Assembly: GCA_023489205.1 (NCBI GenBank)
Contig: JAMDDF010000141.1
Span: 1 to 9,684, forward strand
Origin: Actinomycetota bacterium
GTDB taxonomy: Bacteria; Actinomycetota; Acidimicrobiia; Acidimicrobiales; Palsa-688
Direction: 5' to 3'
Length of the DNA stretch: 9,684 nucleotides
Both the position numbers and the translations under genes were made by a program. The notes below the pieces were generated by a model that did not search any database, was not told the origin of the DNA, and saw only the letters and a program-made list of their open reading frames with translations. Shown piece after piece: positions 867-6,722 of this stretch. How positions within the stretch are numbered: the first letter of the stretch is position 1; each line of letters begins with the position of its first letter.

Positions 867-1814
867 GTGCTGGTTGTGCTGTTCCCCGGGCAAGGCTCCC
901 AAAGACCTGGCATGGGCGCGCCATGGCAGGACCACCCTTCTTGGGAGCTGGTAGGCCAGATCTCTGAAGCGGTGGGGCGTGACGTAGCCAAGCTCCTGGT
1001 CGACGCCGGGGCAGAGGAACTGCGTGCCACCCGCAACGCCCAGCTCGCTACCTTCGCCCTCAGCCTAACGGTCCTCGACGCAGCGAGGGCTGGCCCGCTC
1101 GGCCGCGTCGCACCGAGCCTGTGGAAGGCGGTAGCGGGCCACAGCCTCGGGGAGTACAGCGCGCTCGTGGCAGCGGGCGCTGTCGATTTCCAACAAGGAG
1201 CCCGCCTGGTAAACGCCAGGGGCGAAGCCATGCAGGCTGCCGCTGACGCCGAGGAGGGCACCATGGCGGCGGTGCTCGGGATGGACCTGAGCACCCTGGC
1301 CGAGATTTGCCAAGGTACTGGTGGCGCCTGGGTGGCCAATGACAACGCTCCTGGACAGGTGGTGGTCGCGGGCACGCGCTCGGGCGTCGCCGAGGCCAGC
1401 GAGCGAGCGCTCGAAGCGGGCGCCAAGCGGGTCGTCCCCCTACAGGTTGGCGGAGCGTTCCACACCCCCATGATGGCGCCTGCCCTGGCCCGTCTCCAAG
1501 CTGCGCTCCAAACAACGGCGTTCACGCGTCCTGCTTGGCCTATCGTGTCTAACCTCGACGCGAGCGCCCACTGGGACGGCTTTTGCGCCCTGCTGTTGGC
1601 CCAGCTGTGCTCCCCGGTGCGCTGGAGGGAGTCTCTCCTAGCGCTCGGGCAGGAGGCAGGCACCCTGTTCGTAGAGCTCGGGCCGGGTACGGAGCTGTCG
1701 GGGATGGTCCGCCGGACAGTCCCCGGCGCTAGAAGGGCAAACGTCGCCCGGCCCGAAGACCTCGCTGGGCTCGAGGTAGCGCTCGAGGCCACGCTCGGAC
1801 CGGCGCTCGGCTAG
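867..1814 (+). CDS. fabD: Malonyl-CoA:ACP transacylase FabD
   Basis: A protein of 315 residues, the usual FabD length (about 300-320). It transfers malonyl from CoA to acyl carrier protein, supplying the extender unit for type II fatty acid synthesis in the cytoplasm. The N-terminal FPGQGSQ carries the oxyanion-hole Gln9. GHSLGEYSAL contains the nucleophile Ser93. Arg118 (NARGEAM) should bind the malonyl carboxylate, and GAFHTPMM contains the catalytic His199. NDNAPGQVVVAG and ELGPGTELSGM are further family motifs. The start is GTG at 867, because a TGA lies in frame two codons upstream and the protein begins exactly where FabD proteins normally do. There is no Shine-Dalgarno; a -10-like TAACCT lies 9 nt upstream. 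No other fab genes adjoin it here: hemW is divergent and a gene of unknown function converges on its 3' end with a 15-bp gap. No terminator is visible. Confidence 0.96.
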   Translation: MLVVLFPGQGSQRPGMGAPWQDHPSWELVGQISEAVGRDVAKLLVDAGAEELRATRNAQLATFALSLTVLDAARAGPLGRVAPSLWKAVAGHSLGEYSALVAAGAVDFQQGARLVNARGEAMQAAADAEEGTMAAVLGMDLSTLAEICQGTGGAWVANDNAPGQVVVAGTRSGVAEASERALEAGAKRVVPLQVGGAFHTPMMAPALARLQAALQTTAFTRPAWPIVSNLDASAHWDGFCALLLAQLCSPVRWRESLLALGQEAGTLFVELGPGTELSGMVRRTVPGARRANVARPEDLAGLEVALEATLGPALG

Positions 1815-1829: not shown

Positions 1830-2372
1830 CTATAGGGCGCCTGGTAAAGAGCCGGCCCGCTCGGCACCGAGCCAGTGGCGCCAGTTCGCCGACAACCCGG
1901 CCTTGACCTGGTCGGGCGACATCTCGAGGACCTCGCGGGAGACCAAGTCAACAAGCGCGCGCTGGCGCGTGTAGTCGTGGGCGACGCCGGCGAAAAGGGG
2001 ACGCCGGTAGGCGACAAGATCACCCGGCGCCCCAGGCCCGAAGCCCCAAAGTGCAAACGCCAGTTCCATATCGTGCACAACGGGCCCCCGATGGAACATC
2101 GAGGCGCGCCGGGCACCACAAACGAAGCAGCCAGCGACCACGTCAGCTTTGTGCTCGCCGTCGGCCAGGACCGCCCGCTCGGCCACTTTGTTCGCGAGCT
2201 TGAGGCCGAAGCCTAAGTCTGGGCCGGTCGAGCCGAGCTCCCGGCCTTGGGGTTGACGAAGGTTGGCGATCTCGCCGGGGCGGTCCTGGAGCCAGTGCCC
2301 GGGCGTGGACAACCGGTACAAAGGCCGGACCCTGTCACCTTTCATCAGCGGCACGTAATCGGGTTGCGCCAT
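1830..2372 (-). CDS. Conserved-looking protein of unknown function, last gene after cimA
   Basis: A 180-residue protein whose family I cannot name. It begins MAQPDYVPLMKGDRVRPLYR, has a Gly/Pro-rich N-terminal part with Asp/Arg pairs (DRPGE near 30, GSTGPDLG near 48), then a central stretch AGCFVCGARRASMF (residues 80-93) with a CxxC pair and a likely amphipathic helix VVHDMELAFALWGF (98-111). The C-terminal third looks helical and ends in NWRHWLGAERAG. There is no signal peptide or transmembrane segment. I judge it coding because it fills the gap between cimA and fabD neatly, has balanced composition and lies on the operon strand. The ATG has GGAG touching it, too close for a normal Shine-Dalgarno. 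Only 35 bp follow the cimA stop, so read-through from the leuB operon is likely. I recall similar unassigned proteins in actinobacteria, from memory only. Confidence 0.72.
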   Translation of the reverse strand: MAQPDYVPLMKGDRVRPLYRLSTPGHWLQDRPGEIANLRQPQGRELGSTGPDLGFGLKLANKVAERAVLADGEHKADVVAGCFVCGARRASMFHRGPVVHDMELAFALWGFGPGAPGDLVAYRRPLFAGVAHDYTRQRALVDLVSREVLEMSPDQVKAGLSANWRHWLGAERAGSLPGAL

Positions 2373-2407: not shown

Positions 2408-4048
2408 CTACTCGCCGGTACCGGCCAGCTCGTGCTCGGTAGCACCGCCGTGGAGCAGCCCGAAGACGATGGAGTCCGACAGGGCCGCCCAGGAGGCTTC
2501 GATCACATTCTCAGACACGCCAATGGTCGTCCACGTGCGCTCACCGTCGGTAGAGTCGATGAGCACTCGCGTCACCGCAGCCGTGCCCTTGGAAGACTCG
2601 ATGACGCGTACCTTGAAGTCGGTTAGGTGGATGGCGGCTACCTCGGGGTGGCTGCGGCCAAGGGCCTTGCGCAGCGCAGCGTCCAGGGCGTTCACGGGGC
2701 CATTGCCCTCGGCGACCTCCATGATCCGCTCGTCACCTACGTAAAGCTTGATCGTCGCCTCGGTCGAGAAGCTCCCGTCGGGGCGCAGCTCGGTCATGAC
2801 CCGGTGCGACTCCAACCGGAAAAACGACTGCTTCCATCCCGTAGCGGCCCTCATCAAAAGCTCTAGCGAGGCGTCCGCCACCTCGAAGTGGTAACCCCCG
2901 TGCTCAAGCTCCTTCAGCCTCTCCACCACATATGAGGTCTCCTCCGAAGACAGCTCCAGGCCCATCTGGGCCGCTTTCAGGGCAACGCTCGAACGCCCCG
3001 ACATCTCCGAGACGACAAAGCGCGTGGTGTTGCCCACGGCCTCGGGCTCCACGTGGGAGTAGGCGCTCGGCGCCCGCGCGATGGCGCTGGTGTGGATCCC
3101 CGCCTTGTGGGCAAACGCGGACACTCCCACGAAGGGCTGGTGCGCCGGCGGCACAAGGTTGACGATCTCTGCGATATGGCGCGCTACCGGTGTGAGGAGC
3201 CGGAGGCGGTCGGTGCCGATAGTCTCGACGCCGAGCTTCAATGACAGGTCCGCGATGACTGCCGTCAGGTCCGCGTTGCCCGTGCGCTCGCCGTAACCGT
3301 TGACGCAGCCTTGCACGTGGTCAGCCCCTTCGAGCACCCCCACCAGCGAGTTCGCGACCGCGCAGCCAGAGTCGTTGTGGAAGTGCACGCCAAGGCTGCC
3401 CCCCACGGCCCCCCGCACCGCCCGCACTACCTCAGCGGCTTGGTGGGGCAGCATCCCTCCGTTGGTGTCGCAAAGCACCGGGGTGGCACCGCAGCCCTCG
3501 ATGACGGCGAGGAACTCCCTAGCGAAACCGGGGTCTTCAAAGTAGCCGTCGAAAAAGTGCTCTGCGTCAACGAACACGGTCTTAGCGTTGTTGCGCAGGA
3601 ACGTCACCGAGTCCGCCACCATGTCGAGGGCCTCCGCCCTTGTCGTGCGCAGCGTCTCGGTGATGTGCCAGGGCGACGACTTGGCGACCAAGCACACGTG
3701 GCTCGTGCCGGCACCGGCGAGCTCGGCCATGACGGGGTCGTCCTCGGCCCGGGCACCTGCCTTGCGTGTCGAACCGAACGCCACCAGCTTGGCGTCGGCC
3801 AAGGCGAGCTCGCCGGCAGCTGCACGCTCGAAGAACTCCTTGTCCTTGGGGTTTGCCCCCGGCCAGCCCCCCTCGACGTAGTGGACCCCCAACCTGTCCA
3901 GTTGCTCCGCCACCCGCAGCTTGTCGGCCACAGTCAGCGAAAGGCCCTCAGCCTGGCTGCCATCGCGAAGGGTCGTGTCGAAGATCTCCACGCGGGAGGG
4001 AGGCTGGCCCTGAAAAGCGCTGGCAGGCCCGTGCCCCTCAGCTGACAT
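2408..4048 (-). CDS. cimA: (R)-citramalate synthase CimA
   Basis: A 546-residue DRE-TIM metallolyase that condenses acetyl-CoA with pyruvate to citramalate, the first step of the threonine-independent isoleucine route. The TIM-barrel domain opens with FDTTLRDGSQAEG (residues 23-35, catalytic Arg28-Asp29). YVEGGWPGANPKD (58-70) and DAEHFFDGYFEDP (161-173) are CimA-type signatures not shared by 2-isopropylmalate synthase. HFHND (222-226) supplies the metal-binding histidines, followed by NGYGERTGNADL and AFAHKAGIHTSAI. The C-terminal part from about 385 (GYHFEVADASLELL to GVSENVIEASWAAL) is the LeuA-dimer regulatory domain, which in the family binds the end product, isoleucine. ATG 4048 overlaps the last 11 bases of ilvE, suggesting translational coupling; no clear Shine-Dalgarno is seen. 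The length fits the long CimA class. Confidence 0.95.
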   Translation of the reverse strand: MSAEGHGPASAFQGQPPSRVEIFDTTLRDGSQAEGLSLTVADKLRVAEQLDRLGVHYVEGGWPGANPKDKEFFERAAAGELALADAKLVAFGSTRKAGARAEDDPVMAELAGAGTSHVCLVAKSSPWHITETLRTTRAEALDMVADSVTFLRNNAKTVFVDAEHFFDGYFEDPGFAREFLAVIEGCGATPVLCDTNGGMLPHQAAEVVRAVRGAVGGSLGVHFHNDSGCAVANSLVGVLEGADHVQGCVNGYGERTGNADLTAVIADLSLKLGVETIGTDRLRLLTPVARHIAEIVNLVPPAHQPFVGVSAFAHKAGIHTSAIARAPSAYSHVEPEAVGNTTRFVVSEMSGRSSVALKAAQMGLELSSEETSYVVERLKELEHGGYHFEVADASLELLMRAATGWKQSFFRLESHRVMTELRPDGSFSTEATIKLYVGDERIMEVAEGNGPVNALDAALRKALGRSHPEVAAIHLTDFKVRVIESSKGTAAVTRVLIDSTDGERTWTTIGVSENVIEASWAALSDSIVFGLLHGGATEHELAGTGE

Positions 4049-4961
4049 ATTCGACCCAGTGCTGGTAGCGGTCCACCTCTCCCCGCACGGCAGCCTTATA
4101 GACCTCTTGGACCTTGCGGGTCACAGGGCCCGGGCTGCCGTCGCCCACGAGGCGGTCGTCCACCGAACGCACAGGCACCACTTCAGCCGCCGTCCCAGTC
4201 AAGAACACCTCGTCAGCAGTGTACAGGTCGCTGCGCAAGATGTTCGCTACCTCGACCTCTAGGCCGATGTCGTGAGCGATCGCCGCTATCGAGGACTGCG
4301 TTATACCCTCAAGGGCCCCGGCAGAGACGGGCGGGGTGACGAGGCGGTCATTACGCCAGACAAAGATGTTCTCGCCTGTGCACTCGCTCACGTAACCCTG
4401 AGGCGAGAGAAGCACGGCCTCGTCGTAGCCGGCGTTCAACGCCTCGGCCTTGGCCATGGAGGAGTTGACGTACATGCCCGTACCTTTGGCCGCCGGGGGT
4501 AGGGCATTGGGGTCGTGGCGCTGCCACGAGCTCACCTTCAACCGGACACCGTTTTGCACACCCTCGTCACCGAGGTAGGCGCCCCAGGGCCAGACCGCGA
4601 CAGAAACGTTGACCTGGCAGTTGAGGGTCAATAGGCCCATCTCCCCGTAACCGAGGTACACGAGCGGCCTTATGTAGCACTCGTCCACCTTGTTGGCCAC
4701 GACAGTCTGCTTCACGGCCTCCACGAGCTGCGCCTCGCTGTAGGGGATGTCTATCAAGAAGATCTTGGCCGAGCTAAAAAGCCTCTTTACGTGGTCGGAC
4801 AGGCGGAAGATCCCAGGCCCGCGCTCCGTGTGGTACGCGCGGACCCCCTCGAAGACACCGCATCCGTAGTGCAGCGAGTGAGTAAGGACGTGGATCTTGG
4901 CGTCGTCCCAGGCGACGAGCTCCCCGTCCATCCAGATGTAATCGGTCTTGGTGATCGGCAC
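4038..4961 (-). CDS. ilvE: Branched-chain amino acid aminotransferase IlvE
   Basis: A 307-residue fold-type IV PLP enzyme of the usual bacterial IlvE length. It transaminates the 2-oxo acids of isoleucine, valine and leucine with glutamate as donor. HYGCGVFEGVRAY (31-43) is the substrate-pocket signature. Lys159 in AAKGTGMYVNSS is the expected Schiff-base lysine. GYVSECTGENIFVW (189-202) carries the PLP-contacting Glu193, and EGITQSSI and LTGTAAEVVPV bind the cofactor phosphate in this family. Start is GTG at 4961, giving the normal MPITKTDYIWMDGELV opening. A GAAAGGG (4980-4974) inside the end of leuB lies 12 nt upstream and is a rather distant Shine-Dalgarno. The leuB stop is 7 bp upstream and the 3' end overlaps cimA by 11 bp, so the three genes form one operon. 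A D-amino acid aminotransferase or aminodeoxychorismate lyase is unlikely given these motifs and this context. Confidence 0.95.
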   Translation of the reverse strand: MPITKTDYIWMDGELVAWDDAKIHVLTHSLHYGCGVFEGVRAYHTERGPGIFRLSDHVKRLFSSAKIFLIDIPYSEAQLVEAVKQTVVANKVDECYIRPLVYLGYGEMGLLTLNCQVNVSVAVWPWGAYLGDEGVQNGVRLKVSSWQRHDPNALPPAAKGTGMYVNSSMAKAEALNAGYDEAVLLSPQGYVSECTGENIFVWRNDRLVTPPVSAGALEGITQSSIAAIAHDIGLEVEVANILRSDLYTADEVFLTGTAAEVVPVRSVDDRLVGDGSPGPVTRKVQEVYKAAVRGEVDRYQHWVEYVS

Positions 4962-4968
4962 TACCAGC

Positions 4969-5964
4969 TCACACCCTTTCTGCTATTGCGTCACCGAACT
5001 GGCTCGTAGTCATAGAAGCGGGAGGCTCGAAACCCTGAACGGCCTTGGTGATGCGAGCCGCGGCGTCCCCGAGGCCCAGGTAGTCGAGCATCATGGCGGC
5101 CGAGACGATCGCCGCCGCCGGGTTGGCCTTGCCGGTGCCGGCGATATCAGGAGCGCTGCCGTGGACGGGTTCGAAAAGCGACGGCCCGGTGCGTGCCGGG
5201 TTCAGGTTCGCCGAAGCGGCCCGGCCGATCCCCCCGGTGATCGCGCCCGCCAGGTCGGTCAGGATGTCGCCGAAGAGGTTGTCGGTCACCACTACGTCGT
5301 AGCGGCCCGGCGACTCCACCATGTAGATGCAAGCGGCGTCCACGTGGTGGTAGTCCGTCTCGACTCCAGGGTGCTCGGCGGACACTTCTGCGAAGGTCCT
5401 CCGCCAAAGGTCGCCCGAGTAGTTAAGCACATTGGTCTTGTGGACAAGTGTCAGGTGGCGCCGACGCTCCTCTGCGAGCTCGAAGGCGAAGCGGACGCAG
5501 CGCTCCACGCCAAAGCGTGTGTTCAGGGAACCTTGGGTTGCCACCTCTGCGGGCGTCCCCTTGCGCAGGAAACCGCCCTCGCCAGCGTAGGGCCCTTCGG
5601 TGTTCTCCCTCACTACCGCGAAGTCGACCGGGACGCCGGCCCCGACGCTCGCCTGGGCGTGAAAAGGCCTCAGGTTGATGTACAGGTCCAGCTCGAAGCG
5701 CAAGCGCAGCAGGAGCCCCCGCTCTAGCACCCCCGGAGGGACCAGAGGAGACCCGACAGCACCGAGCAAGATGGCGTCAAAGCCGCGCAGCTGCGTCAGG
5801 GTCTCATCGGGGAGGACCTCGCCGGTAGCCAGGTACCTCTTGGCACCAAGGTCGAAATAGGCCGTGTCCAGCTCAGCGCCAGCCGCGCGCGCCACCTTCA
5901 ACGCCTCGGCCACCACTTCGCCCCCGATGCCGTCACCGGCGATGACAGCAACTTTATGGCTCAC
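4969..5964 (-). CDS. leuB: 3-isopropylmalate dehydrogenase LeuB (probably also acts on 3-methylmalate)
   Basis: A 331-residue beta-decarboxylating dehydrogenase. It oxidises 3-isopropylmalate to 2-oxoisocaproate in leucine synthesis and, in organisms with CimA, 3-methylmalate to 2-oxobutyrate. It opens [26 protein letters not shown] holds the substrate arginines Arg89 and Arg99, [13 protein letters not shown] holds Arg119 and Tyr126, Lys176 (HKTNVL) is catalytic, and Asp209, Asp233 and Asp237 ([16 protein letters not shown]) bind the divalent metal. [18 protein letters not shown] is the NAD-binding segment. I chose GTG at 5964 because AGGAGG (5976-5971) sits 6 nt upstream and the protein then begins where LeuB normally does. 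The longer TTG start at 6051 would add 29 low-complexity residues. First structural gene of the operon, behind a probable attenuator. The RENTEG form is usual in short actinobacterial LeuB proteins. Confidence 0.95.
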
Positions 5965-5966
5965 AA

Positions 5967-6037
5967 CGCTCCTCCTTGCTTGTTCTGCTCGCCTGTTCTG
6001 CTTGCTCGCTTGCCGTGCCTGTTGGTTGTTGCTCGGT
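5967..6037 (-). other. 71-nt stretch without T (no U in the RNA) in the leuB leader
   Basis: From 6037 to 5967 the minus strand has no T at all and is made of A, C and G with recurring GAGCA, AAGCA and AGAAC words, for example GAGCAAGCAGAACAGGC followed by GAGCAGAACAAGCAAGG. It ends just beyond the leuB AGGAGG. Without U it can form few A-U or G-U pairs, so it may act as an open landing area for ribosomes after the attenuator. No function is demonstrated. It could encode a low-complexity peptide only if the TTG at 6051 were used. Confidence 0.6.
5971..5976 (-). promoter_or_regulatory. Perfect Shine-Dalgarno of leuB (AGGAGG)
   Basis: The minus strand reads AGGAGG, then AGCGTT (6 nt), then GTG AGC CAT AAA. 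This is the only textbook ribosome binding site in the window and it fixes the leuB start at 5964. It fits a gene translated from a long leader, unlike its probably leaderless neighbours. Confidence 0.9.
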
Positions 6038-6087: not shown

Positions 6088-6115
6088 AAAACGACCGCCC
6101 CATGGGGGACGGTCG
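6088..6115 (-). terminator. Intrinsic terminator of the leuB-operon attenuator
   Basis: On the minus strand CGACCG (6115-6110) pairs with CGGTCG (6097-6092). Inside, CCC (6107-6105) pairs with GGG (6100-6098) around a CATG loop, with a two-base TC bulge on the left side. TTTT (6091-6088) follows directly. A stable GC hairpin ending in a T run is a Rho-independent terminator. It lies after the putative promoter and leader peptide and about 120 nt before leuB, so it would stop transcription before the structural genes. The T run is short, so termination may be partial. On the plus strand the hairpin is not followed by T residues, which fixes the direction. Confidence 0.75.
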
Positions 6116-6117
6116 GG

Positions 6118-6146
6118 CTTGACGCGTGCGCAGGGCACACGTCAAG
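6118..6146 (-). promoter_or_regulatory. 12-bp hairpin starting at the leader-peptide stop codon
   Basis: On the minus strand CTTGACGTGTGC (6146-6135) and GCACGCGTCAAG (6129-6118) form a 12-bp stem with one G-U pair and a five-base loop. The left arm contains the leader-peptide TGA (6144-6142). The right arm ends two bases before the base of the terminator stem. This is the position of the pause, or 1:2, hairpin of ribosome-mediated attenuators: a ribosome finishing or stalled on the leader peptide would cover its left arm. Confidence 0.7.
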
Positions 6147-6189
6147 TGGCGATCACTACGATGGCCCGCAAGCCGACGGCCCGGTTCAT
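6142..6189 (-). CDS. Branched-chain amino acid leader peptide, 15 residues
   Basis: ATG at 6189 opens a 15-codon ORF, MNRAVGLRAIVVIAT, stopping at TGA 6144-6142. Six residues are branched-chain: Val5, Leu7 and an unbroken Ile10-Val11-Val12-Ile13. The ORF lies between a promoter and a hairpin-terminator pair, upstream of leuB-ilvE-cimA, as expected of an attenuator leader. Ribosome stalling on the Ile/Val run when charged tRNA is scarce would alter folding of the RNA downstream. There is no Shine-Dalgarno; the -10 box ends 8-10 nt before the ATG, so the peptide is probably translated from a leaderless transcript. The best-studied actinobacterial precedent is attenuation of ilvBNC in Corynebacterium glutamicum, also with a short branched-chain-rich leader. 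An ORF this short could arise by chance, but its position and composition together make that unlikely. Confidence 0.75.
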   Translation of the reverse strand: MNRAVGLRAIVVIAT

Positions 6190-6197
6190 AGGTCTTC

Positions 6198-6229
6198 AAA
6201 GTATCGCAGCCCGTAGCCTCCCTCGTCAA
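6198..6229 (-). promoter_or_regulatory. Promoter of the leuB-ilvE-cimA operon
   Basis: On the minus strand TTGACG (6229-6224) matches the -35 consensus in five of six bases. GATACT (6205-6200, spacing 18) or the overlapping TACTTT (6203-6198, spacing 20) serves as the -10. The leader ATG follows 10 or 8 nt after the -10, so transcription should start at or next to it. This is the best sigma-70-type promoter in the window. It lies back to back with the greA promoter. Confidence 0.7.
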
Positions 6230-6254: not shown

Positions 6255-6722
6255 ATGGGTACGACGAAGTTGTCGGCTTCCACTTACCAACGCCTCCAGG
6301 CCGAGCTCGACGACCTAAAAACGCGGGGCAGGGTGGACATAGCCCGGGCCATCGAGGCGGCGCGCGCCCTGGGTGACCTCTCTGAAAACGGCGACTACCA
6401 CGCGGCCAAGGACGCCCAGGGCAAGATGGAGGCCCGCATCCGCCAACTCGAGGCGATGCTGGAAGATGCCGAGATCGTAGAGACTGCTGGCCCCGCTGAA
6501 GAGGTCGCCACCGGCGTGACGGTGAGGCTGCGCTACGCCGGCGACGACGAGGTCGAGCGCTACCTGGTGGGCTCGATCGAAGAGCGCGACTCGGGAGCCC
6601 CAGTGATCTCGCCAGGCTCGCCCCTTGGCCAGGCCTTGATGGGCCGGCGGGCTGGCGAGAGCGTTACCTACGAGGCTCCCAGCGGCAAGCTCGAGGTCGA
6701 GATCGTGTCCGTCGGCGACTGA
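6255..6722 (+). CDS. greA: Transcription elongation factor GreA
   Basis: A 155-residue protein of the normal GreA length. It enters the RNA polymerase secondary channel and stimulates cleavage of backtracked RNA to rescue stalled complexes. The N-terminal coiled coil spans roughly 9-75. Its tip, GDLSENGDYHAAKDAQG (residues 40-56), carries the acidic pair Asp41 and Glu44 that coordinates the second Mg2+ in GreA. The C-terminal FKBP-like domain (about 80-155) includes VISPGSPLGQALMGRRAGES. ATG at 6255 gives the standard N-terminus and is preceded by a -10-like TACCCT 6 nt away with no ribosome binding site. It stands alone: divergent from the leuB leader and separated from metH by 109 bp. A Gfh-type anti-GreA paralogue is unlikely because the acidic tip is intact. 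Confidence 0.96.
   Translation: MGTTKLSASTYQRLQAELDDLKTRGRVDIARAIEAARALGDLSENGDYHAAKDAQGKMEARIRQLEAMLEDAEIVETAGPAEEVATGVTVRLRYAGDDEVERYLVGSIEERDSGAPVISPGSPLGQALMGRRAGESVTYEAPSGKLEVEIVSVGD

Follow-up and report, generated by a model that had tools for sequence, protein, structure and literature searches.

The leuB-ilvE-cimA genes on the minus strand of the analyzed window (the whole 9,684-nt stretch of DNA) are preceded by a short ORF and two hairpins, raising the question of whether this leader is a genuine regulatory element and, if so, which signal it reads. The initial annotation had interpreted it as a ribosome-mediated attenuator, and comparison with related leaders lent support to that interpretation through covariation of the stems and retention of the Ile/Val codon run. 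As judged from the sequences, the leader is very likely a ribosome-mediated transcription attenuator of leuB-ilvE-cimA that senses charged isoleucyl- and valyl-tRNA.

All three genes were identified by NCBIfam models: leuB, 3-isopropylmalate dehydrogenase (4969..5964, minus strand, GTG start; NF002898, 489 bits vs. a cut-off of 393), ilvE, branched-chain aminotransferase (4038..4961, minus strand; NF005146, 430 bits vs. 279) and cimA, citramalate synthase (2408..4048, minus strand; TIGR00977, 623 bits vs. 450). The genes located 3' of the leader, both here and in relatives, are thus those that make the amino acid predicted to be sensed. A Shine-Dalgarno-like AAGGAGG was found in the sequence ahead of leuB (5971..5977, minus strand). 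The nearest named relatives of LeuB include Acidimicrobiales metagenome assemblies (90% identity). Upstream, greA (6255..6722, plus strand) is divergent from leuB, so the second hairpin terminates no gene lying upstream of the leader; a divergent greA was a common neighbour in Acidimicrobiia loci. On the other side of the operon, a 180-codon ORF (1830-2372, minus strand) between fabD (867-1814, plus strand) and cimA had no NCBIfam match at E ≤ 0.001.

On the minus strand, the order of elements is a 15-codon leader ORF, a first hairpin (P1), a second hairpin (P2) and leuB-ilvE-cimA. The ORF (6142..6189, minus strand; MNRAVGLRAIVVIAT, followed by the stop codon TGA at 6144-6142) contains the annotated Ile-Val-Val-Ile run, encoded by ATC GTA GTG ATC at positions -6 to -3 before the stop, one codon farther from it than the usual -5 to -2 of relatives, in which the Ile/Val run is also in frame. 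P1 (6118..6146, minus strand), obtained by folding and by covariation in relatives, comprises 12 bp (5' arm 6146-6135, loop 6134-6130, 3' arm 6129-6118) and encloses the stop codon within its 5' arm; the hairpin reported at the ORF stop is therefore present, yet shifted: it begins 2 nt ahead of the stop. P2 (6092..6115, minus strand) is a 10-bp terminator hairpin (arms 6115-6106 and 6101-6092, 4-nt loop) followed in the sequence by the T run TTTT (TTTTCATAT; 6088..6091, minus strand), just as the initial annotation had described. No base belongs to both P1 and P2 in the window, and the same holds for nearly all relatives. Two features of attenuators, a codon run for the product amino acids and a terminator between the ORF and the first gene, were accordingly found in the window on the basis of sequence and covariation.

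Taken by themselves, the flanking signals were less informative. A consensus scan yielded a -35-like TTGACG (6224..6229, minus strand; alone not above chance) and, 18 nt apart from it, a -10-like GATACT (6200..6205, minus strand) located 10 nt ahead of the start codon of the uORF, which would make the transcript near-leaderless; the promoter matches underlying the earlier description of a good promoter are thus present, but a single match of this kind agrees with chance expectation (0.6). T-tailed hairpins in the window numbered nine against an expectation of 5.7 ± 2.6, with no clear excess as a group, P2 having the longest and most G-C-rich stem among them. The case for the element rests on conservation.

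Conservation was evaluated in LeuB neighbourhoods from named genome records (80 loci) and from a class scan (145 loci) of 395 genomes, 305 of which contained LeuB at E ≤ 1e-80. A T-tailed hairpin with CCG[TC][CT]C was present in 108 of 197 unique regions upstream of LeuB (≥ 60% identity, window included). After L144 and two leaders containing N were dropped, 95 of the 105 usable leaders, including that of the window, were kept as non-near-identical (alignment A2). The order of in-frame Ile/Val run, stop codon, P1 beginning in the stop codon, P2 and T run was conserved in A2. Double changes were detected in 8 of 9 P1 pairs, and the covariation of this stem (0.363 vs. 0.200 shuffled) was not reached in any of 500 shuffles. 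P2 was paired in 97.6% of cases and also covaried (0.195 vs. 0.121 shuffled), its invariance at the CCG[TC][CT]C positions being partly built in by the selection of A2, which did not touch P1 or the codons. Compensatory change in both stems and an Ile/Val run retained in frame near the stop, the comparative signs that the initial annotation had proposed looking for, were thus both observed. A U.G wobble in the P2 stem CCGUCC/GGGCGG (A2 columns 89 and 106) was kept in 82 of the 95 leuB leaders, the other 13 having stronger pairs. The leader element reported ahead of leuB is real.

The same architecture was found in leaders preceding cimA and ilvB. Double changes occurred in 17 of 20 P1 and P2 pairs of cimA-type leaders (39 loci; 0.516 vs. 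0.192) and in 16 of 20 pairs of ilvB-type leaders (49 loci; 0.404 vs. 0.193), these alignments (A4 and A5) being outside the training set of the covariance model but fitted to it, which favours its structure. A crude hairpin finder, which accepted P1 starts at offsets of 0-4 nt from the first base of the stop and no others, placed the start of P1 at 0-2 nt within the stop codon for 102 of 110 leuB-type, 43 of 45 cimA-type and 50 of 51 ilvB-type leaders; these counts are conditional on that limit. P2 mostly followed 0-6 nt after P1, the two hairpins can coexist, and a one-base overlap was detected by the same finder in seven leaders (2 leuB-type, 5 ilvB-type). A recognisable -10 was present in 103 of 209 leaders, with a start codon 6-10 nt on in 94 of these.

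With the covariance model built from A2, matches were obtained in 266 of the 395 class genomes at E ≤ 0.01, with two matches in many of these, and in a phylum-wide scan at E ≤ 0.001 in 43 of 396 genomes; both tallies are lower bounds, as the strict filters of these scans lose weak matches. One genome (G763) gave a model match in one search and none in the large strict-filter scan, and the copy in the window, though part of the training set, scored only 36 bits. Altogether, 245 matches (209 non-redundant) were examined, and 242 of them had leuB (134), cimA (54) or ilvB (54) no more than 440 nt downstream, the leuB share being inflated because many matches came from loci fetched around leuB, some more than once. 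The three others were at contig or locus ends, among them L305, whose sequence continues into a start resembling that of IlvB (MKVTGAQS). The gene following each match was taken as the one with the nearest start in tblastn searches, for which leuB, cimA and ilvB were the only queries. The 16-genome, phylum and Phytohabitans-class scans were genome-wide and not centred on leuB; the matches examined comprise 30 of 45 in the 16 genomes, 30 of 37 in the class of Phytohabitans, and those of the class and phylum scans that did not score low. All 30 examined matches from the 16 genomes preceded leuB (13), cimA (3) or ilvB (14). In the class of Phytohabitans (Actinomycetes), 36 of 296 genomes matched, and the 30 loci examined preceded cimA (23) or ilvB (7). 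The cimA form was found in named genera including Phytohabitans, Modestobacter, Micromonospora and Blastococcus.

Several features of the terminators and their genomic context were also recorded. The ilvB leaders of like architecture share many genomes with leuB or cimA leaders (L266-L279, L298-L305, L306-L345), and their terminator arms are often CGACCTCCC and GGGAGGTCG. In the class of Phytohabitans (L350-L379), the terminator arms of cimA and ilvB leaders are often ACCTC(C/T)C and G(G)GAGGT; these look like anti-SD and SD sequences, although this may be a coincidence. A 20-base terminator pattern allowing two mismatches proved useless genome-wide, its matches being about as frequent as those of a reversed control; exact copies occurred once each in 4 of 10 genomes, among the matches listed.

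The position of the leader was compared with the arrangement of the operon in 126 non-redundant loci in which both genes could be seen. Where cimA lay ≤ 120 nt from the preceding gene, the leader was at leuB in all 94 loci (107 with duplicates), and where the gap exceeded 300 nt it was at cimA in all 17 (19 with duplicates); at gaps of 120-300 nt, it was at cimA in eight loci and at leuB in seven (nine and seven with duplicates). The leader therefore goes with cimA, being at leuB in contiguous operons and at cimA once cimA has split off. The initial annotation had supposed that the element governs the citramalate route to isoleucine, and this link turned out firmer than claimed, since the leader stands at cimA when cimA leaves the operon and its codons there are almost all Ile. 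Neither a model match nor a branched-chain-rich uORF was found in 22 distinct contiguous leuB-ilvE-cimA loci (26 with duplicates; e.g., L006, L015, L022 and L027), apparently reflecting loss of the element from intact operons; half of these 22 loci have ≤ 105 nt ahead of leuB, which is insufficient for a leader, and the other 11 have room.

For the comparison of control codons among the 209 non-redundant leaders, P1 pairing alone determined which stop codon was taken, in place of an earlier choice that maximised Ile/Val. At codons -2 to -5, leuB-type leaders (113) carried 226 Ile, 151 Val and 5 Leu out of 452, cimA-type leaders (45) 148 Ile, 3 Val and 9 Leu out of 180, and ilvB-type leaders (51) 30 Ile, 114 Val and 57 Leu out of 204; no label permutation out of 2000 was as extreme. 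In the leuB-type leaders, the three amino acids filled 382 of 452 cells in frame, compared with 46 cells, every one of them Leu, in one of the two remaining frames and 6 in the last. Ile and Val were nearly absent from the out-of-frame readings. The sets outside the model, from which redundancy was not removed, showed the pattern again, with 58 Ile, 11 Val and 1 Leu out of 92 for 23 cimA leaders and 6 Ile, 18 Val and 1 Leu out of 28 for seven ilvB leaders. Control codons thus differ by target, with Ile ahead of cimA alone, Ile and Val ahead of leuB-ilvE-cimA, and Val and Leu ahead of ilvB. Two synonymous codons were enriched over the genes: GTA accounted for 47% of the Val codons of leuB-type leaders and 68% of those of ilvB-type leaders vs. 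4% in genes, and ATT for 47% of Ile codons in leuB-type and 45% in cimA-type leaders vs. 15% in genes, whereas ATT was not enriched in ilvB-type runs (13% vs. 15%). CimA commits to isoleucine, which fits the Ile-only codons of its leaders, and IlvB serves all three branched-chain amino acids, in agreement with Val and Leu codons. For leuB-ilvE-cimA the fit is looser and the product logic imperfect: IlvE acts for Ile and Val, yet LeuB has a role in leucine too, and leuB-type leaders contain almost no Leu codons.

In the proposed mechanism, the near-leaderless transcript would be translated from its 5' end. With ample Ile and Val, the ribosome would reach the stop codon, and RNA polymerase would form P2 and halt before leuB; with either amino acid short, the ribosome would pause at the codons just ahead of the stop and transcription would continue. 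The ribosome footprint reaches some 12 nt downstream of the A site, so a ribosome at codons -5 to -3 would leave P1 largely free, whereas one on the stop codon would cover the 5' arm. The preferred sign follows this geometry: a ribosome on the stop codon would cover the entire 5' arm of P1, one stalled some codons earlier would leave most of P1 free, and P1 would then form under starvation and oppose P2.

The opposite polarity, as in trp, in which a stalled ribosome would mask P1 and its freed 3' arm would pair with the 5' arm of P2 as an antiterminator, seems rather unlikely. When leuB-type leaders were folded with the P1 5' arm masked and the P2 3' arm not yet made, 51% of the P2 5' arm paired upstream vs. 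38% in shuffled sequences, as this reading would predict; however, cimA-type leaders were barely above shuffles (0.45 vs. 0.40) and ilvB-type leaders were not (0.25 vs. 0.30). The two arms moreover showed no covariation (0.098 vs. 0.097 shuffled), and their pairing was hardly stronger than in shuffled sequences (-6.8 vs. -6.2 kcal/mol, with -16.8 for the terminator) and, with shorter arms, weaker (-5.2 vs. -5.7). A ribosome at -5 to -3 would also barely touch P1, masking less of it than a ribosome on the stop codon would; the sign would then be wrong unless release were fast. The search for an antiterminator by covariation, energy and folding, which paired the arms of P1 and P2 with one another and the 45 nt preceding the stop with every arm, returned nothing convincing. 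Pairing of the P1 5' arm with the P2 3' arm (1:4) was in slight excess (0.126 vs. 0.098 shuffled) and was discarded as implausible co-transcriptionally. An uORF that is sensed but acts through Rho or translational coupling, with P2 merely a weak or 3'-end-protecting hairpin, would account for the absence of an antiterminator, and Rho has been proposed for some actinobacterial leader peptides without terminators (cys; PMC1262725). Yet P2 is T-tailed and covarying, and 177 nt separate the uORF stop from leuB in the window, which makes coupling to leuB unlikely; we regard this explanation as improbable.

Readings that dispense with codon sensing fare still worse. Two conserved hairpins ahead of a biosynthetic operon, and a P1 foot (GCGCG) nearly invariant across cimA leaders, would suit a ligand-binding riboswitch, a T-box or a protein-bound leader, but the upper part of P1 varies freely provided that pairing holds, Rfam covariance models of riboswitch, T-box and leader families matched neither the window (E ≤ 5) nor any of 10 relatives (E ≤ 0.1), and in-frame Ile/Val/Leu codons tracking the target genes would not be expected, leaving such a leader very improbable. 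The chance-level promoter match and hairpin count described above are what a fortuitous ORF before an ordinary constitutive terminator would produce; this possibility is contradicted by the comparative data, namely a codon run conserved by frame and position in 209 non-redundant leaders and covariation of both P1 and P2, and it can practically be dismissed. Returning to the preferred attenuator, in which the ribosome on the stop codon permits termination, its parts, their order, nearly fixed spacing, covariation and codon content were read directly from the leaders, while the switching step and its sign are what we infer, given that P1 does not overlap P2 and no antiterminator was found. A kinetic or steric antiterminator may be compatible with the failed search. 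More tentatively, it is possible that these leaders represent a shared Actinomycetota attenuator without a conventional antiterminator, having the stop codon as the foot of a terminator-abutting hairpin and reused before ilvB, leuB-ilvE-cimA and cimA with its codons rewritten (Val and Leu, Ile and Val, Ile only, respectively), in which occupancy of the stop codon by the ribosome, not a competing hairpin, would decide termination.

The predicted role of the leader is that this actinobacterium very probably senses its own isoleucine and valine supply through it, its relatives varying the amino acids tested according to the genes that follow. In many actinobacteria, cultured and uncultured alike, the citramalate route to isoleucine would thereby be under a specific control that can be tested. 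One architecture with three targets and three codon sets also resembles a natural mutagenesis series, through which both the specificity of the codons and the part played by a stop-codon hairpin without an evident antiterminator become directly testable.

In the E. coli ilvGMEDA and trp attenuators, control codons are cognate to the pathway product and a terminator precedes the first gene. The leader described here resembles them in both respects and differs in having no demonstrable 2:3 antiterminator and in carrying its control codons upstream of hairpin 1 instead of within it. Closer relatives are found among Actinobacteria, where ilvB attenuation is established (PMC1262725, PMC10272879, PMC11857589, PMC13236596), including the Corynebacterium ilvB-II motif (PMC10272879). 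Streptomyces lividans has the leader peptides leuL1 (leuA), leuL2 (leuS) and ilvL (ilvBHC) (PMC8079986), which, like the present one, are leaderless, contain cognate codons and belong to an actinobacterium; unlike it, none of the eight in Table 4 of that source serves cimA or leuB. The available portions of PMC8079986, PMC2965389, PMC8632094, PMC3223726 and PMC13158618 contain no cimA or leuB attenuator, and no description of attenuation of cimA or leuB-ilvE-cimA was found among the best-ranked 7-20 of up to 941 open-licence papers per search, judged by title, beginning of the abstract or selected passages, although an earlier report is possible. With the actinobacterial ilvB(NC) attenuators, the leader shares a short branched-chain uORF and a hairpin followed by a T-tailed terminator, several of them also being leaderless or without a ribosome binding site. 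A single covariance model moreover matches leuB, cimA and ilvB leaders, the comparison with the published ilvB-II being by architecture and not with its model. Differences lie in the target, here leuB-ilvE-cimA or cimA, and in the codons, here Ile and Val or Ile only, with almost no Leu; since the leader in the window precedes leuB and not ilvB, it was not filed as ilvB-II. In the C. glutamicum ilvB model (PMC11857589), three hairpins include an antiterminator overlapping the terminator, whereas P1 is rooted here in the stop codon and shares no bases with the terminator. For M. tuberculosis ilvB1, PMC13236596 reports that changing the leader LVVI codons to AAAA abolished induction and proposes that the antiterminator is prevented from forming when a ribosome occupies the stop codon, a sign that suits the geometry of window-type leaders. 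Judged by its sequence features, the leader would thus be a ribosome-mediated attenuator that stands near the actinobacterial ilvB leaders without belonging to them.
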